Virus record (IMG/VR): IMGVR_UViG_3300040809_000129
Coordinates: 1-21,076 of that record
DNA from: a virus
DNA: 21,076 nucleotides
Direction: 5' to 3' (one strand)
Positions 3,217-21,076 of the stretch are shown here, in pieces. A program made the translations under genes and the position numbers. The notes beneath the pieces were generated by a model. It had not been told where the DNA came from. It did not search any database and saw only the letters and a list, made by a program, of their open reading frames with translations. Position 1 is the first letter of the stretch, and each line of letters begins with the position of its first letter.

Positions 3217-3264
3217 CTAGGGGATAGAATACCTGACGTTAAAGAAGGTTGGGCTATCCCCTAG
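3217..3264 (+). other. Long intergenic hairpin (11-bp perfect stem)
   Basis: CTAGGGGATAG at 3217-3227 pairs perfectly with CTATCCCCTAG at 3254-3264 around a 26-nt loop. It occupies most of the gap between phoH and the next gene. No T-tract follows, so it is not a standard intrinsic terminator. It may be an RNA-processing or stability element, or a weak attenuator. Confidence 0.6.
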
Positions 3265-8883: not shown

Positions 8884-9114
8884 ATGAATGAAATTGATTG
8901 GAGCCAAGTAGACTTTAAAAATCTAGACTACTTAAAAATGTTAAGAGTTCAACGAGACTGGGCACTGGCTAAATCAGACCGACATATGTTCTGGGACAGC
9001 CCACTAACAGATTCTCAAAGACAAGAGTGGGCTACCTATCGCCAAGCCCTGCGTGATTTGCCAGAAACCACAGAAGATCCAGAAAACCCAGTGTGGCCCG
9101 AGCCACCACAGTAA
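8884..9114 (+). CDS. Short tail assembly chaperone-like protein (paralogue of the 937 gene)
   Basis: This 76-residue protein has AAGGA 9-13 bases before its ATG. MLRVQRDWALAKSDRHMFWDSPLTDSQRQEWATYRQALRDLPE is the same motif as in the protein coded at 937-1395 (RxKRDxLLAxTDW...YRQALRDI), and it likewise ends with a Pro/Trp segment (NPVWPEPP). It matches the small Phage_tail_APC family, which accompanies fibre and tip genes in many phages. The N-terminal half of the longer paralogue is missing. Its position immediately after the J-like tip gene suggests it assists assembly of that protein. Family call good, client inferred. Confidence 0.7.
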   Translation: MNEIDWSQVDFKNLDYLKMLRVQRDWALAKSDRHMFWDSPLTDSQRQEWATYRQALRDLPETTEDPENPVWPEPPQ

Positions 9115-9124
9115 GGAGAATATT

Positions 9125-9577
9125 ATGAGTTATAATTTAAGCCAGCGCTCTCTAGGTAAACTAGAGGGCGTTGACCCTAGTCTTGTAGCCGTTGTAAAAC
9201 GAGCTATTGAATTAACTAAAGTAGACTTTGGTGTAGTTTATGGTATGCGTACCGTAGAAGAACAAGAAAAGCTTGTTGCTGCAGGTAAGTCTCAAACAAT
9301 GAAATCAAAACACCTAGAAGGTCGTGCAGTAGATCTTATGGCTTATGTAGATGGTAAAGGATGTTGGGAACTCAACGTCTATGATGATCTTTGTGATGCC
9401 ATGAAGGAAGCCGCCAAAGAACTAGGAGTAGCAATCAAGTGGGGTGCTGCTTGGTCAGAGGGTGATATCAGAAGCTATCCAGGAACAGCAGAAGATGCTA
9501 TGATGGCCTATGTTGACCTCAGACGCTCACAAGGGCGTAGACCATTTATAGATGGACCTCATTTTGAGCTTATCTAA
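9125..9577 (+). CDS. Endolysin, M15 (VanY/L-alanyl-D-glutamate) peptidase
   Basis: This 150-residue protein starts at an ATG with AAGGAG upstream (9113-9118). The zinc ligands of the M15 family are clear: SKHLEGRAVDL gives His63 and Asp70 (HxxxxxxD spacing), and DGPHFEL gives His146, with Asp143 three residues before it as in the phage T5 endolysin. MRTVEEQ (41-47) is the conserved segment upstream. It hydrolyses peptide bonds in the peptidoglycan stem; T5-type enzymes cut between L-Ala and D-Glu. There is no signal peptide, so it needs a holin, and two membrane proteins follow directly. Length fits a single catalytic domain. Function is firm; bond specificity is inferred. Confidence 0.92.
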   Translation: MSYNLSQRSLGKLEGVDPSLVAVVKRAIELTKVDFGVVYGMRTVEEQEKLVAAGKSQTMKSKHLEGRAVDLMAYVDGKGCWELNVYDDLCDAMKEAAKELGVAIKWGAAWSEGDIRSYPGTAEDAMMAYVDLRRSQGRRPFIDGPHFELI

Positions 9578-9587
9578 GGTAAACAAA

Positions 9588-9833
9588 ATGGCACAAACTA
9601 TAGTTGATGATTGGAAAGTTATCCCCAGACTAATGATGCTGGCAGTAACAGTTTTAACATATCAGGCAGTCCATTGGTATATGGCGCTCCCAGACCCCAC
9701 TGTACAACAGAGCGGATTAGTCTCTGTTTGTATGGGAGCCTTAACAGGTTGTTTTGGTATTTGGATGGGTAAAGAATCTAAGACTACAGTAACGCCTATG
9801 GCAGTAGTTCATGAGGAGAAATACTCAAAATGA
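9588..9833 (+). CDS. Small two-TM membrane protein, holin-like
   Basis: I start this 81-residue protein at ATG 9588, which follows the endolysin stop with an AAGGT nearby; the upstream ATG at 9552 lies inside the endolysin. Two hydrophobic segments are visible, about 12-31 (IPRLMMLAVTVLTYQAVHWY) and about 43-60 (GLVSVCMGALTGCFGIWM). A short Lys/Glu-rich tail follows. Size, topology and place beside the endolysin fit a holin or holin partner. Its last codons overlap the next start (ATGA). Two membrane proteins in tandem may be a holin and an antiholin or partner; I cannot tell which is which. Confidence 0.65.
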   Translation: MAQTIVDDWKVIPRLMMLAVTVLTYQAVHWYMALPDPTVQQSGLVSVCMGALTGCFGIWMGKESKTTVTPMAVVHEEKYSK

Positions 9834-10216
9834 TACAAGCACTTATAGGTCCAATTGCCGAACTAGCAGGAGGCTGGCTTAAAGGTAAAGCAAGCGCACA
9901 AGCTGCTGCTGTAAACCTTAAATTAGTTGAGGCCGAAGCTAAAGCCACCATAATGAAATCAGCAGCTACATCTGAAGCTGACTGGGAAAGAATTATGGCG
10001 GAAGGCTCTAAAGAGAGCTGGAAAGACGAATGGTTGACAATACTCTTCTCTGTCCCGCTTATCCTAGCCTTCTTTGGTGATTGGGGTAGAATTATTGTAG
10101 AACAAGGCTTCGCAGCCCTAGAAGTAATGCCAACTTGGTATCAATACACTCTTGGTGTAATTGTTAGTGCTAGCTTTGGTGTTCGTTCTGCAACCAAGTT
10201 CTTTGGTAAAAAGTAA
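9830..10216 (+). CDS. Holin of the GTA 3TM-type family
   Basis: This 128-residue protein has an amphipathic Ala-rich N-terminus (about 1-45, KGKASAQAAAVNLKLVEAEAKA). It is followed by SWKDEWLTILFSVPLILAFFGDW (about 63-85, first clear membrane segment) and PTWYQYTLGVIVSASFGVRSATKFF (about 101-125, second). The 'W..SWKDEW' entry, the 'PxWY' before the last helix and the 'FGVRSxxKF' end are the pattern of holins related to the gene-transfer-agent release holin (GTA_holin_3TM). It would open the inner membrane to let the M15 endolysin out. It is coupled to the preceding membrane protein by an ATGA overlap. I rate the family assignment good. Confidence 0.75.
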   Translation: MIQALIGPIAELAGGWLKGKASAQAAAVNLKLVEAEAKATIMKSAATSEADWERIMAEGSKESWKDEWLTILFSVPLILAFFGDWGRIIVEQGFAALEVMPTWYQYTLGVIVSASFGVRSATKFFGKK

Positions 10217-10252: not shown

Positions 10253-10447
10253 GTGTTTGTAGCGATCTTATTAGTCTGCAACTTAGAAACAGAAACCTGT
10301 GAAGTAGTTAGTCAAAAACAAATGCTAAAGACGGAGGAACAATGCTATGTTCAGTTGGGCCTTGGTATGAATTACTTTGAAGATCTGGGCTATGAAATTC
10401 CCGTATATCGATGTTTACGACTAATTGAAGAATACGAAAAGGCATAA
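10253..10447 (+). CDS. Small cysteine-containing protein of the lysis cassette, unknown function
   Basis: This 64-residue protein starts at a GTG with AAAGGAAAG upstream. It has a short hydrophobic start (FVAILLVC) and four cysteines (9, 16, 31, 54) that could form two disulfides outside the cytoplasm. The EEQCY...VYRCLRL pattern is familiar from small conserved proteins near phage lysis genes, but I know no function. The hydrophobic start is short for a signal peptide. It could be a secreted or periplasmic accessory to lysis; a spanin role is not supported, as no lipobox or long coiled coil is seen. Confidence 0.5.
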   Translation: MFVAILLVCNLETETCEVVSQKQMLKTEEQCYVQLGLGMNYFEDLGYEIPVYRCLRLIEEYEKA

Positions 10448-10452
10448 ATAAT

Positions 10453-10472
10453 AAATACCCGCAAATAATGAT
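10453..10472 (+). promoter_or_regulatory. Candidate phage RNAP promoter, copy 1
   Basis: AAATACCCGCAAATAATGAT here is repeated exactly at 10561-10580. It is followed by AAGAGACAGG, a purine-rich start-like segment. The AAATAC start recalls TAATAC of T7 promoters and AGAG recalls the T7 start region, though the spacing is longer. It lies in the noncoding region upstream of the operon that encodes a T7-like RNA polymerase. Confidence 0.5.
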
Positions 10473-10507
10473 AAGAGACAGGAATCAAACTTTCCTGACA
10501 GTCTCTT
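10473..10507 (+). other. Hairpin A: structured leader directly after copy 1
   Basis: AAGAGAC (10473-10479) pairs with GTCTCTT (10501-10507). Inside it AGGAA (10480-10484) pairs with TTCCT (10492-10496), with a four-base 3' bulge (GACA). If copy 1 is a promoter, the transcript would begin almost at the base of this stem. No T-tract follows. Confidence 0.55.
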
Positions 10508-10512
10508 CACTA

Positions 10513-10543
10513 GCCACCCTCTAGGAATCACCTGGGGGGTGGC
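10513..10543 (+). other. Hairpin B: GC-rich stem between the two promoter-like repeats
   Basis: GCCACCC (10513-10519) pairs with GGGTGGC (10537-10543), extendable inward with further C-G and G-U pairs. The 3' side has CTTGATAAC instead of a U-run, so a terminator is weakly supported. It could be an RNA stability or processing element, or part of a small RNA bounded by the two repeats. Confidence 0.5.
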
Positions 10544-10560
10544 CTTGATAACTAGAGTAA

Positions 10561-10580
10561 AAATACCCGCAAATAATGAT
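10561..10580 (+). promoter_or_regulatory. Candidate phage RNAP promoter, copy 2
   Basis: This is an exact second copy of the 20-mer at 10453-10472, followed by TAGGGGGCC, which is close to the T7-type AGGG start. It is about 127 bases upstream of the portal ATG and is not coding. The two copies differ outside the 20-mer, except that both keep an AG and purines just downstream. A DNA-binding or packaging role is an alternative. Confidence 0.55.
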
Positions 10581-10706: not shown

Positions 10707-12275
10707 ATGGCACTAGTTAAGACAGCTGCTAGTTCTCATAAGCGTGGTGTAGAAACACCTACAGCATCTTATTTGTCCTTAAAACCACTCTGGAAAAAAT
10801 CCCGCAGTGTTTTACAGGGACAAGCTCATGCTAAGGCTCATGATGAATACATTGAACACGATTATTCGAATCTATTGATTCCTTTTTCTCCTTCAATGAC
10901 ACAACAACAATACGACTTCTATAAGGCAGAGGCAGAGCTACCGGGGTTAACTACACAATACGCCCGAGTGCTAATTAGCGCCTTGCTTCGGAAACCCTCA
11001 CGGTTAGAGTTACCCGATGATGTCCCAGAAGAGGCCTATGACTGGCTAACTAAGGACTTTACCTTAGATGGCGCTTCAATGTTTAACTTCCTTGATTCGG
11101 CTATCTGGGAAGAGTTACAAACTTCTCGTGCTTGGATTTACGTTGATACTCCCAAAGTTAACGCCGAACAGTATGATATCATGACAGACGAAGAGCGTAT
11201 GCGTATTGCGCCATACCCCACAGTCATGAAGGCTGAGAATGTTATTAATGTTCAGCTAAAAGAACACCCTATTACTCGTATTAAACAATTGTCTCGTTGG
11301 ATTACTAGGTATATTGCTAAAAGCTACAGTGATGATAACCCTTGGCACCCTAGCTTTGTGGACACAGTCGCAGACCACTACATTGACGAGGCTGGGGGTC
11401 TAGTGATTGATATCTATCAACGTAAGGATCCCAACCACAGTGTCGATGCTGTAAATGGTGAACTTCGTCAGGACTACGAAGACGAAGTAGAATCTGGATT
11501 TATTAAAGTTGAAACAATGACACCAATGAAGTTTGGTGAAAGACTAGAATTTATTCCTGCATGGCCCTTAAATGGTCAATTAGAACCTATCGAGCCAGTT
11601 CTTATGCCCCTTGTAGATCGTGAAGTTGCTCTTTATAACAAGGTATCTCGTAGAAACCACTTATTATACGGTGCTGCAACTTATACTCCTGTTGTACAAT
11701 CTGATATGACAGATGAGGAATTCGAGGAAATTGTTAACGCAGGATTAGGTACTTGGCTACGTGTTCGCAAGGATGAATCAATTTCTGTTCTTGAAACGCC
11801 TACAGCTGCCTTGGCCGATATGGAAAAGGCTATTGCTTCTACAGTACAAGAAATGGCCAAGATGGGGATTCGTATGCTTTCCCCAGAGCAAGCAACCTCC
11901 GGCGTGGCTCTTGAAATCCGTAATGCGTCTCAAACCGCACAACTCGGAACACTTAACTCTAAAATCTCAGGCACTATGCAGGAGGTTATTGCATTCATGA
12001 TGAATTGGAAATACAACCTAGATCTAACAGGTAATGATATTGTATTCCAATTATCTTCAGATTTTTCACCTATGGTAGGTGGAGAAGGTGCAATGCGTCT
12101 AGTATCTGAATGGTATCAGTCTGGTATTATTAGTCGTGAAACTTTTGTTTCTATTGCTAAGTACAATGACTTCTTACCTGCAGACTATGATGACGAAAAG
12201 GCAGTTGGTTCAATCCAAACTGATCCTCTCATCGGTACAACTCCCGATACAGAAATTACTCTCGATGAAGAATAG
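10707..12275 (+). CDS. Portal protein (DUF4055-type)
   Basis: This 522-residue protein starts at an ATG with GAGGT seven bases upstream. The first ~110 residues match the DUF4055 portal group: LLIPFSPSMTQQQYDFYKAEAELPG and TTQYARVLISALLRKPSRLELP. EELQTSRAWIYVDTP (about 135-149) is the 'AGRag..VD.P'-like strand. The region around 300-420 (LVDREVALYNKVSRRNHLLYGAA, ATSGVALEIRNASQTAQLG) is the helical stem-crown part. It forms the dodecameric ring at the capsid vertex through which DNA is packaged and ejected. It is the first gene of the head operon, directly downstream of the promoter-like repeats. The Mu F-like fusion follows, the usual order portal then Mu F protein. The tail is acidic (PDTEITLDEE). 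Confidence 0.88.
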   Translation: MALVKTAASSHKRGVETPTASYLSLKPLWKKSRSVLQGQAHAKAHDEYIEHDYSNLLIPFSPSMTQQQYDFYKAEAELPGLTTQYARVLISALLRKPSRLELPDDVPEEAYDWLTKDFTLDGASMFNFLDSAIWEELQTSRAWIYVDTPKVNAEQYDIMTDEERMRIAPYPTVMKAENVINVQLKEHPITRIKQLSRWITRYIAKSYSDDNPWHPSFVDTVADHYIDEAGGLVIDIYQRKDPNHSVDAVNGELRQDYEDEVESGFIKVETMTPMKFGERLEFIPAWPLNGQLEPIEPVLMPLVDREVALYNKVSRRNHLLYGAATYTPVVQSDMTDEEFEEIVNAGLGTWLRVRKDESISVLETPTAALADMEKAIASTVQEMAKMGIRMLSPEQATSGVALEIRNASQTAQLGTLNSKISGTMQEVIAFMMNWKYNLDLTGNDIVFQLSSDFSPMVGGEGAMRLVSEWYQSGIISRETFVSIAKYNDFLPADYDDEKAVGSIQTDPLIGTTPDTEITLDEE

Positions 12276-12319: not shown

Positions 12320-15300
12320 ATGGCTACCGTCAACGATAAAATATTTGACCGTATTGTAGATCACATGACAGATGTAAGGCTCTATGAAAACGGTGTACAA
12401 AAACAAAACAGAGCGATTCTGAAAACACATCGCAAGAATTTAAGAGATATATTGGTAAAAGATATCCGTGGTGATGTAAAACCTGAAGTGACACGCTTCG
12501 GAAAGGAACTCCTTGGACATAATACAAAGTCTTTAAGTGAGTTCTCTAAGTCCCAATTATCCTTCCACTCAAATAACATTGATGCGGAAATTAAAAAGTT
12601 CTATCGAACAAATAAACCTAAAACTAAAGAACTACTAGCAGAAATCTCTGGCCCTAATATTAAAGGTGTACGAAAGATATCTTCAAATATTAGCAACATT
12701 TCTTCTGGTGAGCTAGTGCGCATTCAGTCTAAAGTCAAGGCAGGTCTTGCCAAAGGACTATCTAAGAATGAAATTATTGCTGATGTTATGAAAACAACTA
12801 AGATCACAGAACATCAAGCTAAAACCTTAACACGCACCTCTATCACAAGTACTCAGACACAGGCCCTAAATCAAGTTATGGATGCTAACTCTGAGGTATT
12901 AGAGGGTTATATGTTTACAGCTATACTTGACGCTCGTACAAGCCCTATTTGCTCTCACCATAATGGCAGAGTCTATAAGCTTGACGAGATGCAGTATAGG
13001 CCTCCGCTTCACTGGAACTGTCGATCTTCAATGGTTCCTGTTGTTAAGTCTAAAGAACAACTAGCCGCTGTAAAAAGCAAAAACATAAAAGAGCGTGGCC
13101 TTAAGAATACGCAATCTGCCGATCTTGATGGCAACCCCTCTAGAATAAAAACATTTGGAGAGTGGTTACGCAGACAACCAACTGATACCCAAGCTAAGAT
13201 ACTTGGCGGAGAGCGTCAGGCTACTTTGTTTCAAAAAGGAAGACTAAAAGCTGAAGAGTTTGTAAGTCCAGAAGGTAAAGCACTTTCTATCCGTGGCCTT
13301 ATGCGCCGTGCTAATACTACAGTACGTAGGCCAACTGCTTCGAACATATCTAATACTACTCTGAGGTTTAATACACCCGATGAGTTAATGTCATCTAAGA
13401 GTAGTACACAGGCTTTAAAAGATTTCTTCAAGGCTGATGCCGCAGAAAACGCACAGTCATTGTCTCTTGTAGACTACAAGGGTAACTCCCTCGCTCAAAA
13501 ACAGAGTGCAAGACGATATTTTAAGAATGATCGTAAGGGCGCTGCCTTTAGTTCTGATGGTACAGACTACAATTCTGGACCATACAAACATCTACAAGCA
13601 CCTGACCCTGAATTCTTGGCAGAAAGGTTGGAGCGGCTTAGTTTTGAGCAGTACAGTCTTACTCCAAAACAACAGAGCTATATCCGAAATTTTGTTAATG
13701 ACTTAGATAGCTCTTTGTCGGTTAATCAAAGAGCAGCTGTTACGGATGTAATGCGCCAAACATTTTCTCGTGCAAATAAGAACGGGGAAGTCTGGGAACA
13801 ACCTGTTTCTGTATTCCGCAAATTTATGCTTAATGCTGTACAAGATAACGGTACCTCTCTTTTTAACAGATCTGTAGAACGTGGCAAAATGTTTGGGCCT
13901 CTCGGGTCTAGACTAGCTGACGATCCTGATGTATTTATACTAAATAGAAAATATACTATATCTCAGATTGTAGAAGACCAGCTAAGAGATAATCGCTATA
14001 TAGAGACTTGGCGAGGTAAACAGGGCGCTAAACTTGCCCGGAGAGCTTACTATAACCGTAGTGCTCCTATTTCAGCTTATACCCAACCAATCATTAAAAG
14101 GTATCCTTCAATTAAAAATGCTAAAAAGGCATTATTAAATAAGATACCGGGTTATAAACAGTGGCAAGCTATAAATAAACTCTTGGAACCCAAGGGGCCA
14201 TCTGATTCCTGGATTACACAACAGATAGCTAAACTTCGGGGAACTACCCGTGAGTTGCTTGATGGAGAGTTCCTCTTTGCTAGCAATAGGAAAAAGGCTA
14301 TTAGAAATCTAAATGACAAGTCAACCAGTGCCTTGGCTAAATCAATGGAAGCTATTGCACAGGCGGATGGTGCAGATTATGACCAATTAGCAATCAAGAT
14401 TGGACAAATATTTGATCAAGAGCTAGGTAATCTAAACCCATTCCGATCTAAGACTCTTGGGGAATTCCACAAGGATGGCTCTAAGATTTTAGCGAATCTA
14501 GAAAAGCAAAAGCTTATTCGCACAGATGTCTTCAGAGACTCTGGGACAAGCTCACCGATCGACATTGTTACAGGTAGACCTGCAGCTGATAAGACTCTGC
14601 GAGGAACCTCCGTATTTAAACAAATACAAATAATCGACGGGGATCTTCGCCAGCTTCAGATTGCTCACGCAAAAACTCGTACAGCTAGGCGGTTTGGGGT
14701 TTACAATAATAGAGATAAGGTCTATGCTCGTGCAGGTCAAAAAGAGTACTATGATGCTCGTGGCCGCAAGACAAAGATGCCAGTTGTATCTGAAAAAGTA
14801 TACCCCGACTATGATCCTAAGCAGATTGACCGTGAAATGGCTCAAATGCTTAATCATGCTAACTCCGTAAAATACCAAGTTGACAATGACTTTTTTGACT
14901 TTGCTGAAGAGGTTATTTACTTTAAAGCTAAACGTGCTGGTGACTCTAAGCTGCTAGAACAAAATGAATGGAAGAAGTTATTTATCGATGCTAGAGGTAA
15001 TGATGGTCGTGGGGTTTTGGCTACTGCCAAATTCCATAGACAAAGAAATCAAAGTTTTTCAGTTGACGCCTCAATTGATTTCCGTGGGCGTGTATATCAC
15101 CGTGGACTATTAACCCCAACCAAGGGGGAGACTGTACGTCCGTTTTTAAATACGGCAAAGGGAGTTTCTATTACTCCAAATGCGGTTGAAGAGCTTATGA
15201 CTCAAATTGGTGCTGCAACAGGTGCTGCTACCGAAGTACTAACTGTAAAGGGTAGGCTAAAAGCCTTTAAAGCTATTGAACAAGATCTGCTAGAGCTTGG

Positions 15301-16774
15301 TGGCTATATGTTAGATAAGCCTTCTCAGCGTGCAGGGCAAGTTCGAAAGTTCATTGCTAAAACCCATCAAATGGGTCTTGATGATGAACACATAGGTAAG
15401 GTCTCTCGGCTTGCTCTAGAATACACTCGTATATACCGACATATGGGCGGTAAAATGTTAACTGATAAGTCTAAGTGGAGTTCCGCAGATATTAAAAAGT
15501 TAGCTCAGTACAAGACTAAGATGATGATTGAAAATGATGCTAGTTCTTCTGGTGCTCAAATTATCGCCTTGTCTACTAAGGATCGTGCTGCTGCCGACTT
15601 ATCTAATGTTGTTCAAACTTCAAGTAAACAAAGATTATACGATGAGATCGCTAAGAGAACCGTTAATGATCCTGAGTTTCTAGCTATACCTGAACTTGCT
15701 GAATTAGACCTAGATTGGTCAGACCTTATGAAGGCTGCTAAAAATCAAAACATGGTTACGTTCTATGGTGCTGGTGACGCTACCAAGGCTAATAACGTTT
15801 CTAATGCTTTTGCGAAAGTGTTAGCGAATAAAGGTAAAGTGACTATTTCCGCTAAAGAGGTGGATAAGTTTAAAAAGGCCATTGATGCTAAAATTAGCTT
15901 TGAAATGGACAGAAAGAATTGGGCACGTATTGACGAACTACGTGACATAAAGAAAAACGTGGTACTGGCTTCTAAAGACGGAAAGCCTATCACAGACTCC
16001 CTACACGACATTGCCAAGGCAGAGTTTAGAGATGGGATTAAGAGTTCAGAAGAGATGCATACTTTTCTATACAAACTTAAAGACGAGACAGGAGACCTTG
16101 TAGGTACCCGTGTCTTTGAGAAAGTATCTAAAATTATGACTCGCTATCTTGAAGAAGAGGTTCCTGTGACCGGAAAGTTTATCAAGTTCTGGAAAGACGT
16201 AGCAAAAGACTACGTTGCAGAATCTGGTTCAGTTGACATTCCTTGGGTTACTTTTGATGGTAAAACAATGATGCAACGCTATCGTGTCAAGGAACAAGTA
16301 AGAATTGACTTTACAGACCCAGTCACTGGGCAAAAGGTCTTTAATATTTACGAGACTCCCTCTCGTGATGGTAAGCTACTATCACAACAATCAATACAGG
16401 ACGCTGCTATTGGATTAGGGGTTAATGGGAACCACAGCAATGACGCCGTGCTCGTAAGAAGATTTCACCTTTGGGGGCGAAAGAATAATGTCGATACTGG
16501 TACAATCCACGATGCGTTCTTTACAAACCTAGGTGACGCAGTAAATGCGAAATTTGCCTTAAGACAGTTTTATGCTGATGCATTAAAGTCTGGGACAATA
16601 GAACAAACTCTCAAGGCTATGAGAGACTCGGGCATGTCAAGAGCGACATACCGGAAATACGTACAACGTGCCAAACAGGACGGGCTTTTAAAGTCTGGCC
16701 CAGAGGCGCTAACCTACCGAGAAGTCCTAGATCCGATTAAGGACGGGAATGACTGGTATGGTATCGGACCATAG
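12320..16774 (+). CDS. Fusion of Mu F-like minor head protein with a T7-like single-subunit RNA polymerase
   Basis: This is one uninterrupted 1484-residue frame with two recognisable parts. Residues about 150-245 are the Mu F/SPP1 gp7 minor head domain: LTRTSITSTQTQALNQ, then LDARTSPICSHHNGRVY with Cys211, His213 and His214, and PPLHWNCRSS with His231 and Cys234. Residues about 830-1484 align with T7 RNA polymerase. DFRGRVY at 920-926 matches T7 DWRGRVY. NDASSSGAQ has Asp1073, matching catalytic Asp537. KNQNMVTFYG has Lys1141, Met1145 and Tyr1149, matching Lys631, Met635 and Tyr639 with identical spacing. IPWVTFDGK is at 1307-1315. GNHSNDAVLVRRF precedes TIHDAFFT with His1397 and Asp1398, matching His811 and Asp812. 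Both catalytic Asp residues are kept. Residues about 245-830 are basic and unrecognised. Mu F proteins sit inside the capsid at the portal, so I infer a packaged polymerase. The Arg of the KxxxMxxxYG helix is replaced (Met1137). Confidence 0.9.
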   Translation: MATVNDKIFDRIVDHMTDVRLYENGVQKQNRAILKTHRKNLRDILVKDIRGDVKPEVTRFGKELLGHNTKSLSEFSKSQLSFHSNNIDAEIKKFYRTNKPKTKELLAEISGPNIKGVRKISSNISNISSGELVRIQSKVKAGLAKGLSKNEIIADVMKTTKITEHQAKTLTRTSITSTQTQALNQVMDANSEVLEGYMFTAILDARTSPICSHHNGRVYKLDEMQYRPPLHWNCRSSMVPVVKSKEQLAAVKSKNIKERGLKNTQSADLDGNPSRIKTFGEWLRRQPTDTQAKILGGERQATLFQKGRLKAEEFVSPEGKALSIRGLMRRANTTVRRPTASNISNTTLRFNTPDELMSSKSSTQALKDFFKADAAENAQSLSLVDYKGNSLAQKQSARRYFKNDRKGAAFSSDGTDYNSGPYKHLQAPDPEFLAERLERLSFEQYSLTPKQQSYIRNFVNDLDSSLSVNQRAAVTDVMRQTFSRANKNGEVWEQPVSVFRKFMLNAVQDNGTSLFNRSVERGKMFGPLGSRLADDPDVFILNRKYTISQIVEDQLRDNRYIETWRGKQGAKLARRAYYNRSAPISAYTQPIIKRYPSIKNAKKALLNKIPGYKQWQAINKLLEPKGPSDSWITQQIAKLRGTTRELLDGEFLFASNRKKAIRNLNDKSTSALAKSMEAIAQADGADYDQLAIKIGQIFDQELGNLNPFRSKTLGEFHKDGSKILANLEKQKLIRTDVFRDSGTSSPIDIVTGRPAADKTLRGTSVFKQIQIIDGDLRQLQIAHAKTRTARRFGVYNNRDKVYARAGQKEYYDARGRKTKMPVVSEKVYPDYDPKQIDREMAQMLNHANSVKYQVDNDFFDFAEEVIYFKAKRAGDSKLLEQNEWKKLFIDARGNDGRGVLATAKFHRQRNQSFSVDASIDFRGRVYHRGLLTPTKGETVRPFLNTAKGVSITPNAVEELMTQIGAATGAATEVLTVKGRLKAFKAIEQDLLELGGYMLDKPSQRAGQVRKFIAKTHQMGLDDEHIGKVSRLALEYTRIYRHMGGKMLTDKSKWSSADIKKLAQYKTKMMIENDASSSGAQIIALSTKDRAAADLSNVVQTSSKQRLYDEIAKRTVNDPEFLAIPELAELDLDWSDLMKAAKNQNMVTFYGAGDATKANNVSNAFAKVLANKGKVTISAKEVDKFKKAIDAKISFEMDRKNWARIDELRDIKKNVVLASKDGKPITDSLHDIAKAEFRDGIKSSEEMHTFLYKLKDETGDLVGTRVFEKVSKIMTRYLEEEVPVTGKFIKFWKDVAKDYVAESGSVDIPWVTFDGKTMMQRYRVKEQVRIDFTDPVTGQKVFNIYETPSRDGKLLSQQSIQDAAIGLGVNGNHSNDAVLVRRFHLWGRKNNVDTGTIHDAFFTNLGDAVNAKFALRQFYADALKSGTIEQTLKAMRDSGMSRATYRKYVQRAKQDGLLKSGPEALTYREVLDPIKDGNDWYGIGP

Positions 16775-18691: not shown

Positions 18692-19198
18692 ATGGCACTT
18701 GTACTTAATACAAACAGTTATGTAGAAATAGCAGATGCTGATACATACTTTGAAACTCGTATTGACAGTGCCGAATGGACTTCTGCTACAGACGAGATCA
18801 AAGAGCAAGCTTTGGTTACTGCTACTCAGTTAGTAGATGACCATGCTTGGATTGGGTCTGCTGTTAGTTCCTCTCAGGCTTTAGCTTGGCCTCGTAAAAA
18901 TGCTATTTACATTGATGATCGTTTAGGTCTTCAAGTTACAATAGCACAAAACGAAATCCCAAGTCGTGTTAAAACCGCTGTCTATGAACAAGCATTACAT
19001 CTTGTAAATAATGAAGACCTACTGGCAGGTACTACTCAAACTTTCGAGAGTATCTCCGTAGGCTCCATTAGCCTTACAGATAGTAATAGCGATGTTACAA
19101 GAACCTCTATTAAACCTTCTGTAGTTATGAGACCTATTAGGCCTTTACTTCGCAGGGGCACTACCGGGCAAGGCTCCGGATGGTGGAGGGCGAACTAA
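18692..19198 (+). CDS. Head-tail connector / DnaT-like structural protein
   Basis: This 168-residue protein follows the capsid gene with a GAGAG site. Its start, VEIADADTYFETRIDSAEWTSAT, then QALVTATQLVDDHAWIGS and QALAWPRKNAIYIDD, is the pattern of phage proteins often labelled DnaT-like ssDNA-binding or head-tail adaptors (gp6-like helical bundles). The 'QALaWPR' segment is characteristic. The C-terminal tail is basic (RPIRPLLRRGTTGQGSGWW). Position between capsid and connector genes supports an adaptor that docks below the portal; the DNA-binding label from the family name is not evidence for that activity. Its stop overlaps the next ATG. Confidence 0.7.
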   Translation: MALVLNTNSYVEIADADTYFETRIDSAEWTSATDEIKEQALVTATQLVDDHAWIGSAVSSSQALAWPRKNAIYIDDRLGLQVTIAQNEIPSRVKTAVYEQALHLVNNEDLLAGTTQTFESISVGSISLTDSNSDVTRTSIKPSVVMRPIRPLLRRGTTGQGSGWWRAN

Positions 19199-19536
19199 TG
19201 TCACTAAACGCTAAAATCCGTGCCGCTGTAAATAAGGCTTTTACAGCTGTAGGAGATTTAGTTGTTACTGGGACACTTTCCTCTCGCAAAGTCTCTAACT
19301 ACGATTTCGCTAATCGGGGTGTAGTTTCTTCTGTGTCAACTTCTTCTGTAGAAGTTATAATTCAGTCAACTCAAAAGCCTTCTGGCGATGGGTTTACGGT
19401 TACGGCACTAATGAAATTCGGCCCGGACTTATCTGTTTATGATACCCTTACTGTAGGTAGTGATATCTATAATATTGCTGATTACTCTGACGATGGTTTC
19501 TTAGTAACTGCAATACTTGTTAAGGAGAGGTCGTAA
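19198..19536 (+). CDS. Head closure / head-tail connector-like protein
   Basis: This 112-residue protein starts at the ATG overlapping the upstream stop (TAATG); the longer frame from 19180 would lie inside the upstream gene. It is a small beta-rich protein: DLVVTGTLSSRKVSNYDF, VEVIIQSTQKPSG and FGPDLSVYDTLTVGSDIYNIADYSDDGFLVTAILVKE. The last part, 'yDtltvgs..Y.I.d....dg....a.lv.r', is the head-closure (SPP1 gp16-like or lambda FII-like) small-barrel pattern. It sits between the adaptor and the tail-terminator-like gene, where the stopper is expected. I infer this from pattern and position. Confidence 0.6.
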   Translation: MSLNAKIRAAVNKAFTAVGDLVVTGTLSSRKVSNYDFANRGVVSSVSTSSVEVIIQSTQKPSGDGFTVTALMKFGPDLSVYDTLTVGSDIYNIADYSDDGFLVTAILVKERS

Positions 19537-19940
19537 TGTTTGATAATGTATTGGCTGACATCGAAGGAGTCTTTGGCGGGGCAGTTTGGAATGCTAACAG
19601 CATACCCACATTCCCTATGAACTACCAAGGTAGCATAGGATCAAATGTTCAAGAGTTTGTTCGTTTGAATGTACTGCCAAGTGCAAGTAACAACTATGCC
19701 TATGATGACAAGAAAAAGACAACGGGGCTAATTGCAGTAAAAATGTTTGTAAAAGCAGGAGATGGTCAGGGGCGACTCATGGCAATTGCTGATCTTTTAG
19801 ACATTGTACTTCAAAACAAAACACTGCCCAACGGCACAAGCCTTGGAACATCATACTTAACAATAGAAGGGCTAGATCCTTCTAATAATTCGCTTTACAG
19901 CGCATCTTATTTCATTCCATTTACACTATACGGAGAATAA
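19536..19940 (+). CDS. Tail terminator / tail completion-like protein
   Basis: This 134-residue protein starts at an ATG overlapping the previous stop. FDNVLADIEGVFGGAVWNANSIPTFPMNYQG (about 2-32) followed by EFVRLNVLPSAS and KTTGLIAVKMFVKAGDGQGRLMAIADLLDIVLQNKTL is the fold pattern of the phage tail-terminator group (DUF4128 or gpU-like): a helix, a strand with 'v..n', and a 'G.......D.l...l' helix. LEGLD-like and YFIPFTLYGE strands finish it. The gene directly precedes the major tail protein, the usual place for the ring that stops tail growth and joins tail to head. The call rests on pattern and synteny. Confidence 0.65.
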   Translation: MFDNVLADIEGVFGGAVWNANSIPTFPMNYQGSIGSNVQEFVRLNVLPSASNNYAYDDKKKTTGLIAVKMFVKAGDGQGRLMAIADLLDIVLQNKTLPNGTSLGTSYLTIEGLDPSNNSLYSASYFIPFTLYGE

Positions 19941-19942
19941 AA

Positions 19943-20482
19943 ATGGCACATATTTCATCACTCGGTGCAGGTATCTTTACATACCTGGACCTCTTTAAAG
20001 GCACAATCCCAGCGGGTACTGATACCGCAGCTGAATGTGCTGCACTATTTGTAGGAACAACCCCAGGAACAGCAGACGCAGATCATGTGCGTATGCCTTC
20101 TGTGCGTGAGTTCCCATCCGTGGGTACACCTGCAAACATCGTAAACGTACCTGTTTATGGTCAGAAAACATCTTCTCAGGTTCAAGGTCAGGCCGATGCG
20201 CCAAGCCTCGAAGTTACTGTTAACTATGTTGCAGAAGACATGACAGCAATCCACGCCCTTGTTGGTCAAACTGTTATCTTCCGCTTCATGATGGCTGCTT
20301 CCGCAGTTACTCCTGATGAGGCCGCCGCTGCAACTTTGGCTGTAGAAAACACAGAATTCTACTTCCAAGGTAAAATTGAGGCTATTCTGGTTAACCCAGC
20401 CTTGACAGACTCCACAACTGCAACCGTTACTCTGTCTACTCAGTCAGATTTCTTCGGTCCAGCAACTTTGGCTGCTGCCTAA
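19943..20482 (+). CDS. Major tail (tube) protein
   Basis: This 179-residue protein starts at an ATG two bases after the previous stop. It has the capsid-like codon pattern (AAC, TTC, GAC, TAC), a sign of high expression. The beta-rich sequence includes VREFPSVGTPANIVNVPVYGQKTSSQVQGQADAPSLEVTVNYVAEDM (about 54-100). The 'G.p.nivnVp.Yg...s..v.gqad.p.lev..ny' stretch is the shape of siphophage tail-tube proteins. FRFMMAAS and FYFQGKIEAILVNP follow, and it ends with a glycine/alanine tail (FGPATLAAA). It would polymerise into the tail tube. A strong terminator follows 8 bases after the stop, isolating this highly expressed gene from the smaller genes downstream. Confidence 0.8.
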   Translation: MAHISSLGAGIFTYLDLFKGTIPAGTDTAAECAALFVGTTPGTADADHVRMPSVREFPSVGTPANIVNVPVYGQKTSSQVQGQADAPSLEVTVNYVAEDMTAIHALVGQTVIFRFMMAASAVTPDEAAAATLAVENTEFYFQGKIEAILVNPALTDSTTATVTLSTQSDFFGPATLAAA

Positions 20483-20489
20483 AACAATT

Positions 20490-20518
20490 AGGGGGCTCCT
20501 CCGGGAGCTCCCTTTTTT
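20490..20518 (+). terminator. Intrinsic terminator after the major tail protein gene
   Basis: AGGGGGCTCC (20490-20499) pairs with GGAGCTCCCT (20504-20513) with one G-U, giving a 10-bp stem closed by a TCCG (UNCG-type) loop. A run of six T's at 20513-20518 follows at once. This is a textbook intrinsic terminator, placed after the highly expressed head-tail block. Confidence 0.92.
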
Positions 20519-20529
20519 AAGGAGTAATT

Positions 20530-20766
20530 ATGGATAAACCATTTAGTAAATCGTTTGTTATGCGTACAACGTTCCGACACATGCGTAGGAGTGTTGATAT
20601 TAGTATTCGAAAAAGCTTTGAGAGATTCAAAGACTTTGATAATGATAGCCGAGCCGGAAAAGAAATTATGGAAACTCTTTCTGTATTACATACAGTACGT
20701 AAGATGTTAGACGATTTCCAATTAGAAAACGCAGAGCTATTTAATGATAAAGATAAGTTAGGATAA
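20530..20766 (+). CDS. Small helical protein after the tail tube gene, unrecognised
   Basis: This 78-residue protein starts at an ATG with AAGGAG eight to thirteen bases upstream, directly after the terminator. It is basic and helical with MRTTFRHMRRSVDISIRKSFERFKDF at the start and ETLSVLHTVRKMLDDFQLENAELF at the end, and has no visible enzymatic motif or membrane segment. Genes here, between the tube gene and the tail chaperone, are often small and of unknown function. I do not recognise the family. Its promoter may be its own or readthrough past the terminator. Confidence 0.6.
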   Translation: MDKPFSKSFVMRTTFRHMRRSVDISIRKSFERFKDFDNDSRAGKEIMETLSVLHTVRKMLDDFQLENAELFNDKDKLG

Positions 20767-20769
20767 GAT

Positions 20770-21069
20770 ATGAAACATCTCGTAAATAAATCAATGACAG
20801 AAAAAGTCCCATTTATGGGCGACGAAGTTGAAGTGCGTAAATTGACTGTTGGCCAAATTATGGACATGCAGAAGATTATTCAGAAGGCTGAAAAATCTAA
20901 GGCGGAAGACGCTCAATTGAAACTCCTTTGTGATATTATTAAAATTGCCGTAGTGGGCGCAGAAGATCTGTCTGAAGAGGACTTTTCTTCTTTTCCGCTA
21001 GGCGAACTTTCAGAACTTTCTACACATGTTATGCGTGTATCAGGTCTCGGGGGCGTTGAGGGAAACTAA
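20770..21069 (+). CDS. Probable tail assembly chaperone
   Basis: This 99-residue protein starts three bases after the previous stop. Its layout, EKVPFMGDEVEVRKLTVGQIMDMQKII then a Lys/Glu-rich helix and IIKIAVVGAEDLSEEDFSSFPLGELSELSTHVM, is that of tail assembly chaperones: 'v.vrkLtv.q......' followed by '.i...v..w.ls.edl..l...el..l...v'. These bind the tape measure protein during tail assembly. The gene follows the tail tube gene, its usual place before the tape measure. In many phages it is extended by a programmed frameshift. The end GGTCTCGGGGGCGTTGAG has a G-run, but the window stops seven bases later, so this cannot be tested. Confidence 0.65.
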   Translation: MKHLVNKSMTEKVPFMGDEVEVRKLTVGQIMDMQKIIQKAEKSKAEDAQLKLLCDIIKIAVVGAEDLSEEDFSSFPLGELSELSTHVMRVSGLGGVEGN

Positions 21070-21076
21070 CTCAATC

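Follow-up and report, generated by a model that had tools for sequence, protein, structure and literature searches.

The DNA element described here most closely resembles the T7 and SP6 promoters of the Autographiviridae (TAATACGACTCACTATA followed by GGG, and ATTTAGGTGACACTATA followed by GAAG). It shares with them a length of about 20 bp, an AT-rich segment from -17 to -13, a specificity block of the kind read by the polymerase loop, and a G start. One of the versions described below, type E (TAATACCTGACGTTTAA followed by GAATAA), is close to both. The elements of our phage group nevertheless have other central sequences, start with GAY or GAA, and stand as a tandem pair before the portal gene. 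The Autographiviridae plan of one RNA polymerase (RNAP) and a short tail also does not apply, as the relatives of our phage encode two RNAPs and one of them, DSS3_VP1, carries a tape-measure gene.

Pairs of phage RNAPs in which one enzyme is a virion protein or is joined to one, and in which distinct DNA motifs are used, are known from N4 (PMC4496689) and from the Thermus phage P23-45, where the partner is the tape measure protein (PMC10770324). In our system the partner is instead a MuF head protein, both enzymes have the T7 fold, and the MuF partner suggests that the fusion may be packaged. MuF domains fused to other enzymes are known as delivered effectors (PMC5512222). The roseophages DSS3_VP1 and DSS3_PM1 (Naomviridae), whose DNA is reported to contain dU (PMC12697855), encode the whole MuF-RNAP fusion (45% identity over 100%), annotated there as a minor head or head morphogenesis protein, together with a separate annotated RNA polymerase. 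Head genes of DSS3_VP1 are ordered as in our phage (portal, MuF-RNAP, capsid). The two roseophages repeat a T7-type motif of their own, AATAGGKNRCGTTAAAGA, with three of the copies lying upstream of the portal gene, and their early genes are preceded by the second motif discussed below; they differ in promoter specificity (GGGTGCG and kin) and in a portal leader without a visible bulged hairpin. Our literature search found no description of a MuF-RNAP fusion or of these promoters, which does not prove that none exists.

We analyzed a complete IMG/VR record of 21,076 bases that represents a genome fragment, hereafter called the window. Two identical 20-mers within it are, with a probability we put at about 0.9, tandem promoters (P1 and P2) for a free T7-like RNAP of the phage whose gene lies outside the fragment.

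A tandem pair of 20-mers before the head operon

The sequence AAATACCCGCAAATAATGAT occurs exactly at 10453-10472 and 10561-10580 on the + strand, 108 bp apart, inside a 259-bp gap that separates a small ORF (10253-10447) from the portal gene at 10707. An earlier note, made from the letters of the window, had pointed to this pair, and the observation holds: the copies are exact, no further copy exists in the 21-kb window when up to three mismatches are allowed, the chance expectation is 0.02, and none of 100 shuffles contained two. A search with the DNA of this region returned no match in the phage collection, and Rfam yielded none that was credible.

Both copies have the layout of a T7-type promoter, with an AT-rich segment (-17 to -13), a specificity block (-12 to -6, CCCGCAA), an AT-rich melting segment (-5 to -1) and a purine start, and all versions of the element align in this single register. 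We designate the window's version type A (AAATACCCGCAAATAAT followed by GAT, spanning -17 to +3). Its assignment draws on the exact repeat, the same placement in relatives, and the T7 register given by the covariation presented below. Because that register makes the G at position 18 of the 20-mer +1, P1 and P2 would start at 10470 and 10578, the latter 129 nt upstream of the portal start codon. The earlier note had instead placed the start in the purines that follow each repeat. The bases it cited (AAGAGA and TAGGGG) are there, but they fall outside the conserved block, and the probable start moves into the repeat itself.

Beyond P2 lies an operon that this promoter would transcribe. It begins with the portal protein (10707-12275, + strand; phrog_145, E 1e-45; DUF4055), continues with a 1484-aa fusion of a MuF head domain (PF04233, aa 135-238) to a T7-fold single-subunit RNAP (PF00940, aa 1058-1437) at 12320-16774 on the + strand, and then encodes a scaffold and the major head (capsid) protein.

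The pair recurs across related marine phages, each with its own sequence. With the fusion as query we recovered 83 relatives in viral contigs. In 17 related records every phage has its own version of the 20-mer, present as two tandem copies upstream of the portal gene, and the longer records have extra copies before replication genes. Specificity blocks include CCCGCAA, GGGCGGA, CTTGACC, CTCCCGA, GGGTCCC, CCTGACG and others, and repeat versions at homologous places in other phages read AAATAGGGCGGAATAATGA, AAATACTTGACCCTTATGA, AAATACTCCCGAATAATGA, AAATAGGGTCCCCTTATGA and AATACCTGACGTTTAAGAA. The exact 20-mer of the window is present in 13 viral DNA stretches. One of these, a 63.9-kb record, bears out the earlier note's expectation that promoters would reappear between genes on the coding strand rather than singly or inside genes on random strands: it holds five exact copies, all intergenic and on the coding strand, namely a tandem pair upstream of the portal gene, single copies ahead of a gp2.5-like ssDNA-binding protein adjoining an RNAP gene and ahead of a 5'-3' exonuclease, and a fifth close to a contig end. 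Across the 17 relatives and the window, type-matched sites (at most one mismatch) lie on the dominant coding strand in 48/48 cases and between genes in 45/48, the latter count coming from a crude ORF caller that flagged three of the 48 inside its ORF calls. Among full-length relatives, those nearest to the window share 80% DNA identity over 11.6 kb and a fusion that is 83% identical; in them both promoters have changed jointly, to CGGACCC / GGGTCCC, and the fusion loop is almost the same, differing by few residues.

Window positions 9055-10215 match a type-E-group phage (L077) at 92% identity, although the sequence to their right is that of the A/B group; these affinities place a recombination boundary immediately upstream of P1. 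The window further contains an orphan type-E site, AATACCTGACGTTAAAGAA (also written AATACCTGACGTTAAAGA), at 3228-3246 on the + strand after a PhoH gene, where it lies within the loop enclosed by the two arms of an 11-bp inverted repeat (3217-3227 / 3254-3264). The other promoters of the same phage are type A. DSS3_VP1 likewise has a promoter directly after PhoH.

Two T7-like polymerases and the probable reader of the pair

Longer records encode, in addition to the fusion, a second T7-like RNAP that is free and about 730-780 aa long. It matches the Pfam family at E of about 1e-78, compared with about 1e-10 for the fusion. Its specificity loop changes with promoter type, and the MYRIS loop is common to two type-A enzymes that are just 60% identical. 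An alignment search with the free RNAP yielded 80 loci. At most of them a single T7-type site follows the RNAP stop at a distance of about 170-270 nt (446 nt in one case), and a few gave none.

We compared promoter bases with polymerase residues in the T7 register, collapsing the data to 15 specificity types plus T7. At the homologue of T7 R746, which we take from the T7 RNAP-promoter crystal structure to contact -7, arginine is present in 8/8 of the types whose -7 base is C and in 0/8 of the others; where that base is A the residue is Q (2/2), where it is T the residue is V, and where it is G the residue is K, E, D or T. By an exact test, the 8/8 versus 0/8 split has a probability of 8e-5, a figure to be read with the types being non-independent because they are phylogenetically related. 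At the homologue of Q758, the residue goes with base -8 in a similar way (A with K, 4/4; T with Q, 2/2; C with R, 5/6; G with E, D or W). Among 2940 column-base pairs, 758/-8 ranks second and 746/-7 third, and some non-contact alignment columns also score highly. The R756 homologue fits in part, with arginine solely where -9 is C, in 5/7 such types. In T7 itself, Q758 contacts -8, R756 contacts -9, N748 contacts -10/-11, and the loop covers -11 to -7 (PMC5937735). Since many types have a single member, ranking the alignment columns of 35 dereplicated RNAPs by normalized mutual information gave no useful signal, and the type-collapsed test was used in its place.

Taken with strand, position and recurrence, this covariation with the residues that contact the promoter in T7 strongly supports the part of the earlier note that read the 20-mers as putative promoters of a phage-encoded T7-family polymerase. 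The residue-base pattern is nearly one-to-one at two contact positions. With at least 15 natural promoter specificities and their polymerases, the group is an extensive natural record of changing promoter specificity among T7-type RNAPs and a source of orthogonal polymerase-promoter pairs.

The free RNAP gene is absent from the 21-kb window, and its type was traced through a relative. Contig 3300040751_000797 matches window 18797-21076 at 97.3% identity. By coordinates, it carries a free RNAP with a type-A loop about 8.3 kb beyond the window's end, with a type-A site after the RNAP gene. From this 97%-identical relative we infer that the cognate free RNAP of the window phage is type A.

The same note had gone on to suggest the polymerase of the downstream operon as the reader, which could then amplify its own expression. 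The fusion is encoded directly downstream, and its RNAP domain carries motif A together with the DxRGRVY and HDAF motifs. The model built for residues 560-1484 (mean pLDDT 70, moderate) finds T7 RNAP as its best structural match (Foldseek E 1.8e-14). The specificity loop of the fusion, however, is near-constant from promoter type A through type E, which leaves self-amplification unsupported. Fusions from one type-A and one type-B phage are 94% identical, those of one type-D and two type-B phages are 92-93% identical, and the fusions closest to that of the window come from phages with other promoter types. The promoter sequence is tracked by the separate free RNAP and not by the fusion. We regard self-amplification as very improbable, and the free RNAP as the candidate reader that is well supported by sequence comparison. 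Elsewhere, EBPR siphovirus 1 (L138:5001-10410) carries a distant MuF-RNAP fusion (31%) interrupted by an HNH endonuclease gene.

That the 20-mers are instead a sigma-type promoter bound by the host RNA polymerase, or an operator bound by some regulator of the phage, is less likely still. Generic sigma-70-like matches do occur near the 20-mers, but only as often as in shuffled sequence; the 20-mers themselves have no -35/-10 architecture, and their central seven bases are phage-specific and match changes in the loop residues of the phage RNAP. That they are recombination, packaging or replication sites, as pairs recurring beside the portal gene in a hairpin-rich region might suggest, can be practically dismissed, since single copies, invariably on the coding strand, also precede the genes for the ssDNA-binding protein and the exonuclease, and since the sequence covaries with RNAP contact residues.

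A predicted P1 transcript and a second motif

If P1 and P2 are promoters for the free RNAP, as we favor, P1 would produce a transcript that opens with two predicted hairpins. The first (10473-10507, + strand) includes a conserved CTGACAGTC block and has a 4-nt bulge, GACA (10497-10500), on its 3' side. The second (10513-10543, + strand), lying between P1 and P2, is G+C-rich, 13 bp long and terminator-like. A short hairpin, TAGGGGGCCTCCCTA, follows directly after P2 (10581-10595, + strand). A related block is present after P1 in 23/23 compared sequences (GACAG...CTGACAGTC in most). The GACA-bulge hairpin is predicted in most of the 23 and is followed by a second hairpin of unconserved sequence. 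Fold energies of the 23 sequences lie 2 to 6 standard deviations below those of shuffles, and in some (e.g. G005, G008, G011, L019) the minimum-energy fold pairs otherwise. Several relatives have a T-run past the second hairpin; the window has none, and no + strand terminator was called at its second hairpin. Transcription from P1 would yield either a short structured RNA or a two-hairpin leader, ending between P1 and P2 or entering the head operon. The stretch 10473-10543 could possibly serve as a small RNA or as a leader or processing site of the RNase III type.

A second motif marks other genes of these phages. It takes the forms GTGGGG-N9-CCTCTATAAYGA and, in DSS3_VP1 and the type-E group, GTGAGA-N8-GCATCTATAATGA, with the combined consensus GTGRGR-N11-TCTATAAYGA. 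It lies roughly 20-60 nt upstream of small genes, precedes early genes, and stands upstream of the free RNAP gene in DSS3_VP1 and many loci (examples are at L223:4606-5014, L232:2181-3613, and L136:35795 and 36242). The motif is alike in phages with promoter types A, B and C and is therefore independent of the free RNAP's specificity. It may be an early promoter, read perhaps by the MuF-fused and possibly virion-borne RNAP. By eye, the motif contains no consistently paired stem of the kind found in N4-like hairpin promoters. Host sigma-70 was considered as its reader and set aside, as a TATAAT is there and a -35 at the right spacing, again by eye, is not.

These elements can be assembled into a two-polymerase cascade, which we offer tentatively, at a little under even odds. 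A MuF-RNAP in the capsid would enter the cell with the DNA and express the early genes by reading the invariant second motif. The free RNAP, made early, would then read the fast-diverging 20-mers, and satellites such as L248, described below, would parasitize the system through a row of promoters with several specificities. A T7-like polymerase fused to a capsid protein, and a satellite possibly exploiting the system, thus come into view, and both can be tested in a cultured phage, DSS3_VP1 on Ruegeria pomeroyi.

A satellite-like element with several promoter-like sites

A search of 84,980 bacterial and archaeal genomes for the exact 20-mer gave one match, in a 7.3-kb contig (L248) of a Gammaproteobacteria metagenome-assembled genome. 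This contig encodes an integrase end, a molybdopterin oxidoreductase, a DUF5906 helicase-primase and an HNH protein. At L248:4063-4384 (- strand), five different T7-type sites, TAATAGCCAGGAATAATGA, AAATAGCGCCCCCTTATGA, AAATACGCGACCCTAAAGC, AAATAGGGCGGGTTCATGA and AAATACCCGCAAATAATGA, one of them the exact 20-mer, lie on one strand within about 320 nt before small genes and the DUF5906 primase. Nowhere else among 359 loci (3.3 Mb, some overlap) did three kinds of site fall within 450 nt, and the L248 helicase had no relatives in viral contigs. The cluster is possibly a promoter array that draws on several helper polymerases, in a single case whose contig is perhaps misbinned. Two more motif matches in Gammaproteobacteria were considered as satellites and rejected as chance-like, neither lying within a site cluster.

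L248 bears some likeness to PICMIs, a kind of marine phage satellite. It combines an integrase domain (PF00589) with a DUF5906 primase (PF19263), both among the genes by which PICMIs are defined. It differs in that AlpA and Fis were not seen among the six ORFs scanned in this incomplete contig, and in its array of phage-RNAP promoters, a feature of which we found no mention in the PICMI description. At L248:4400-7262, the end of the integrase frame (MREHMEKVW) recurs beyond the molybdopterin gene, in the manner of an attachment-site repeat.
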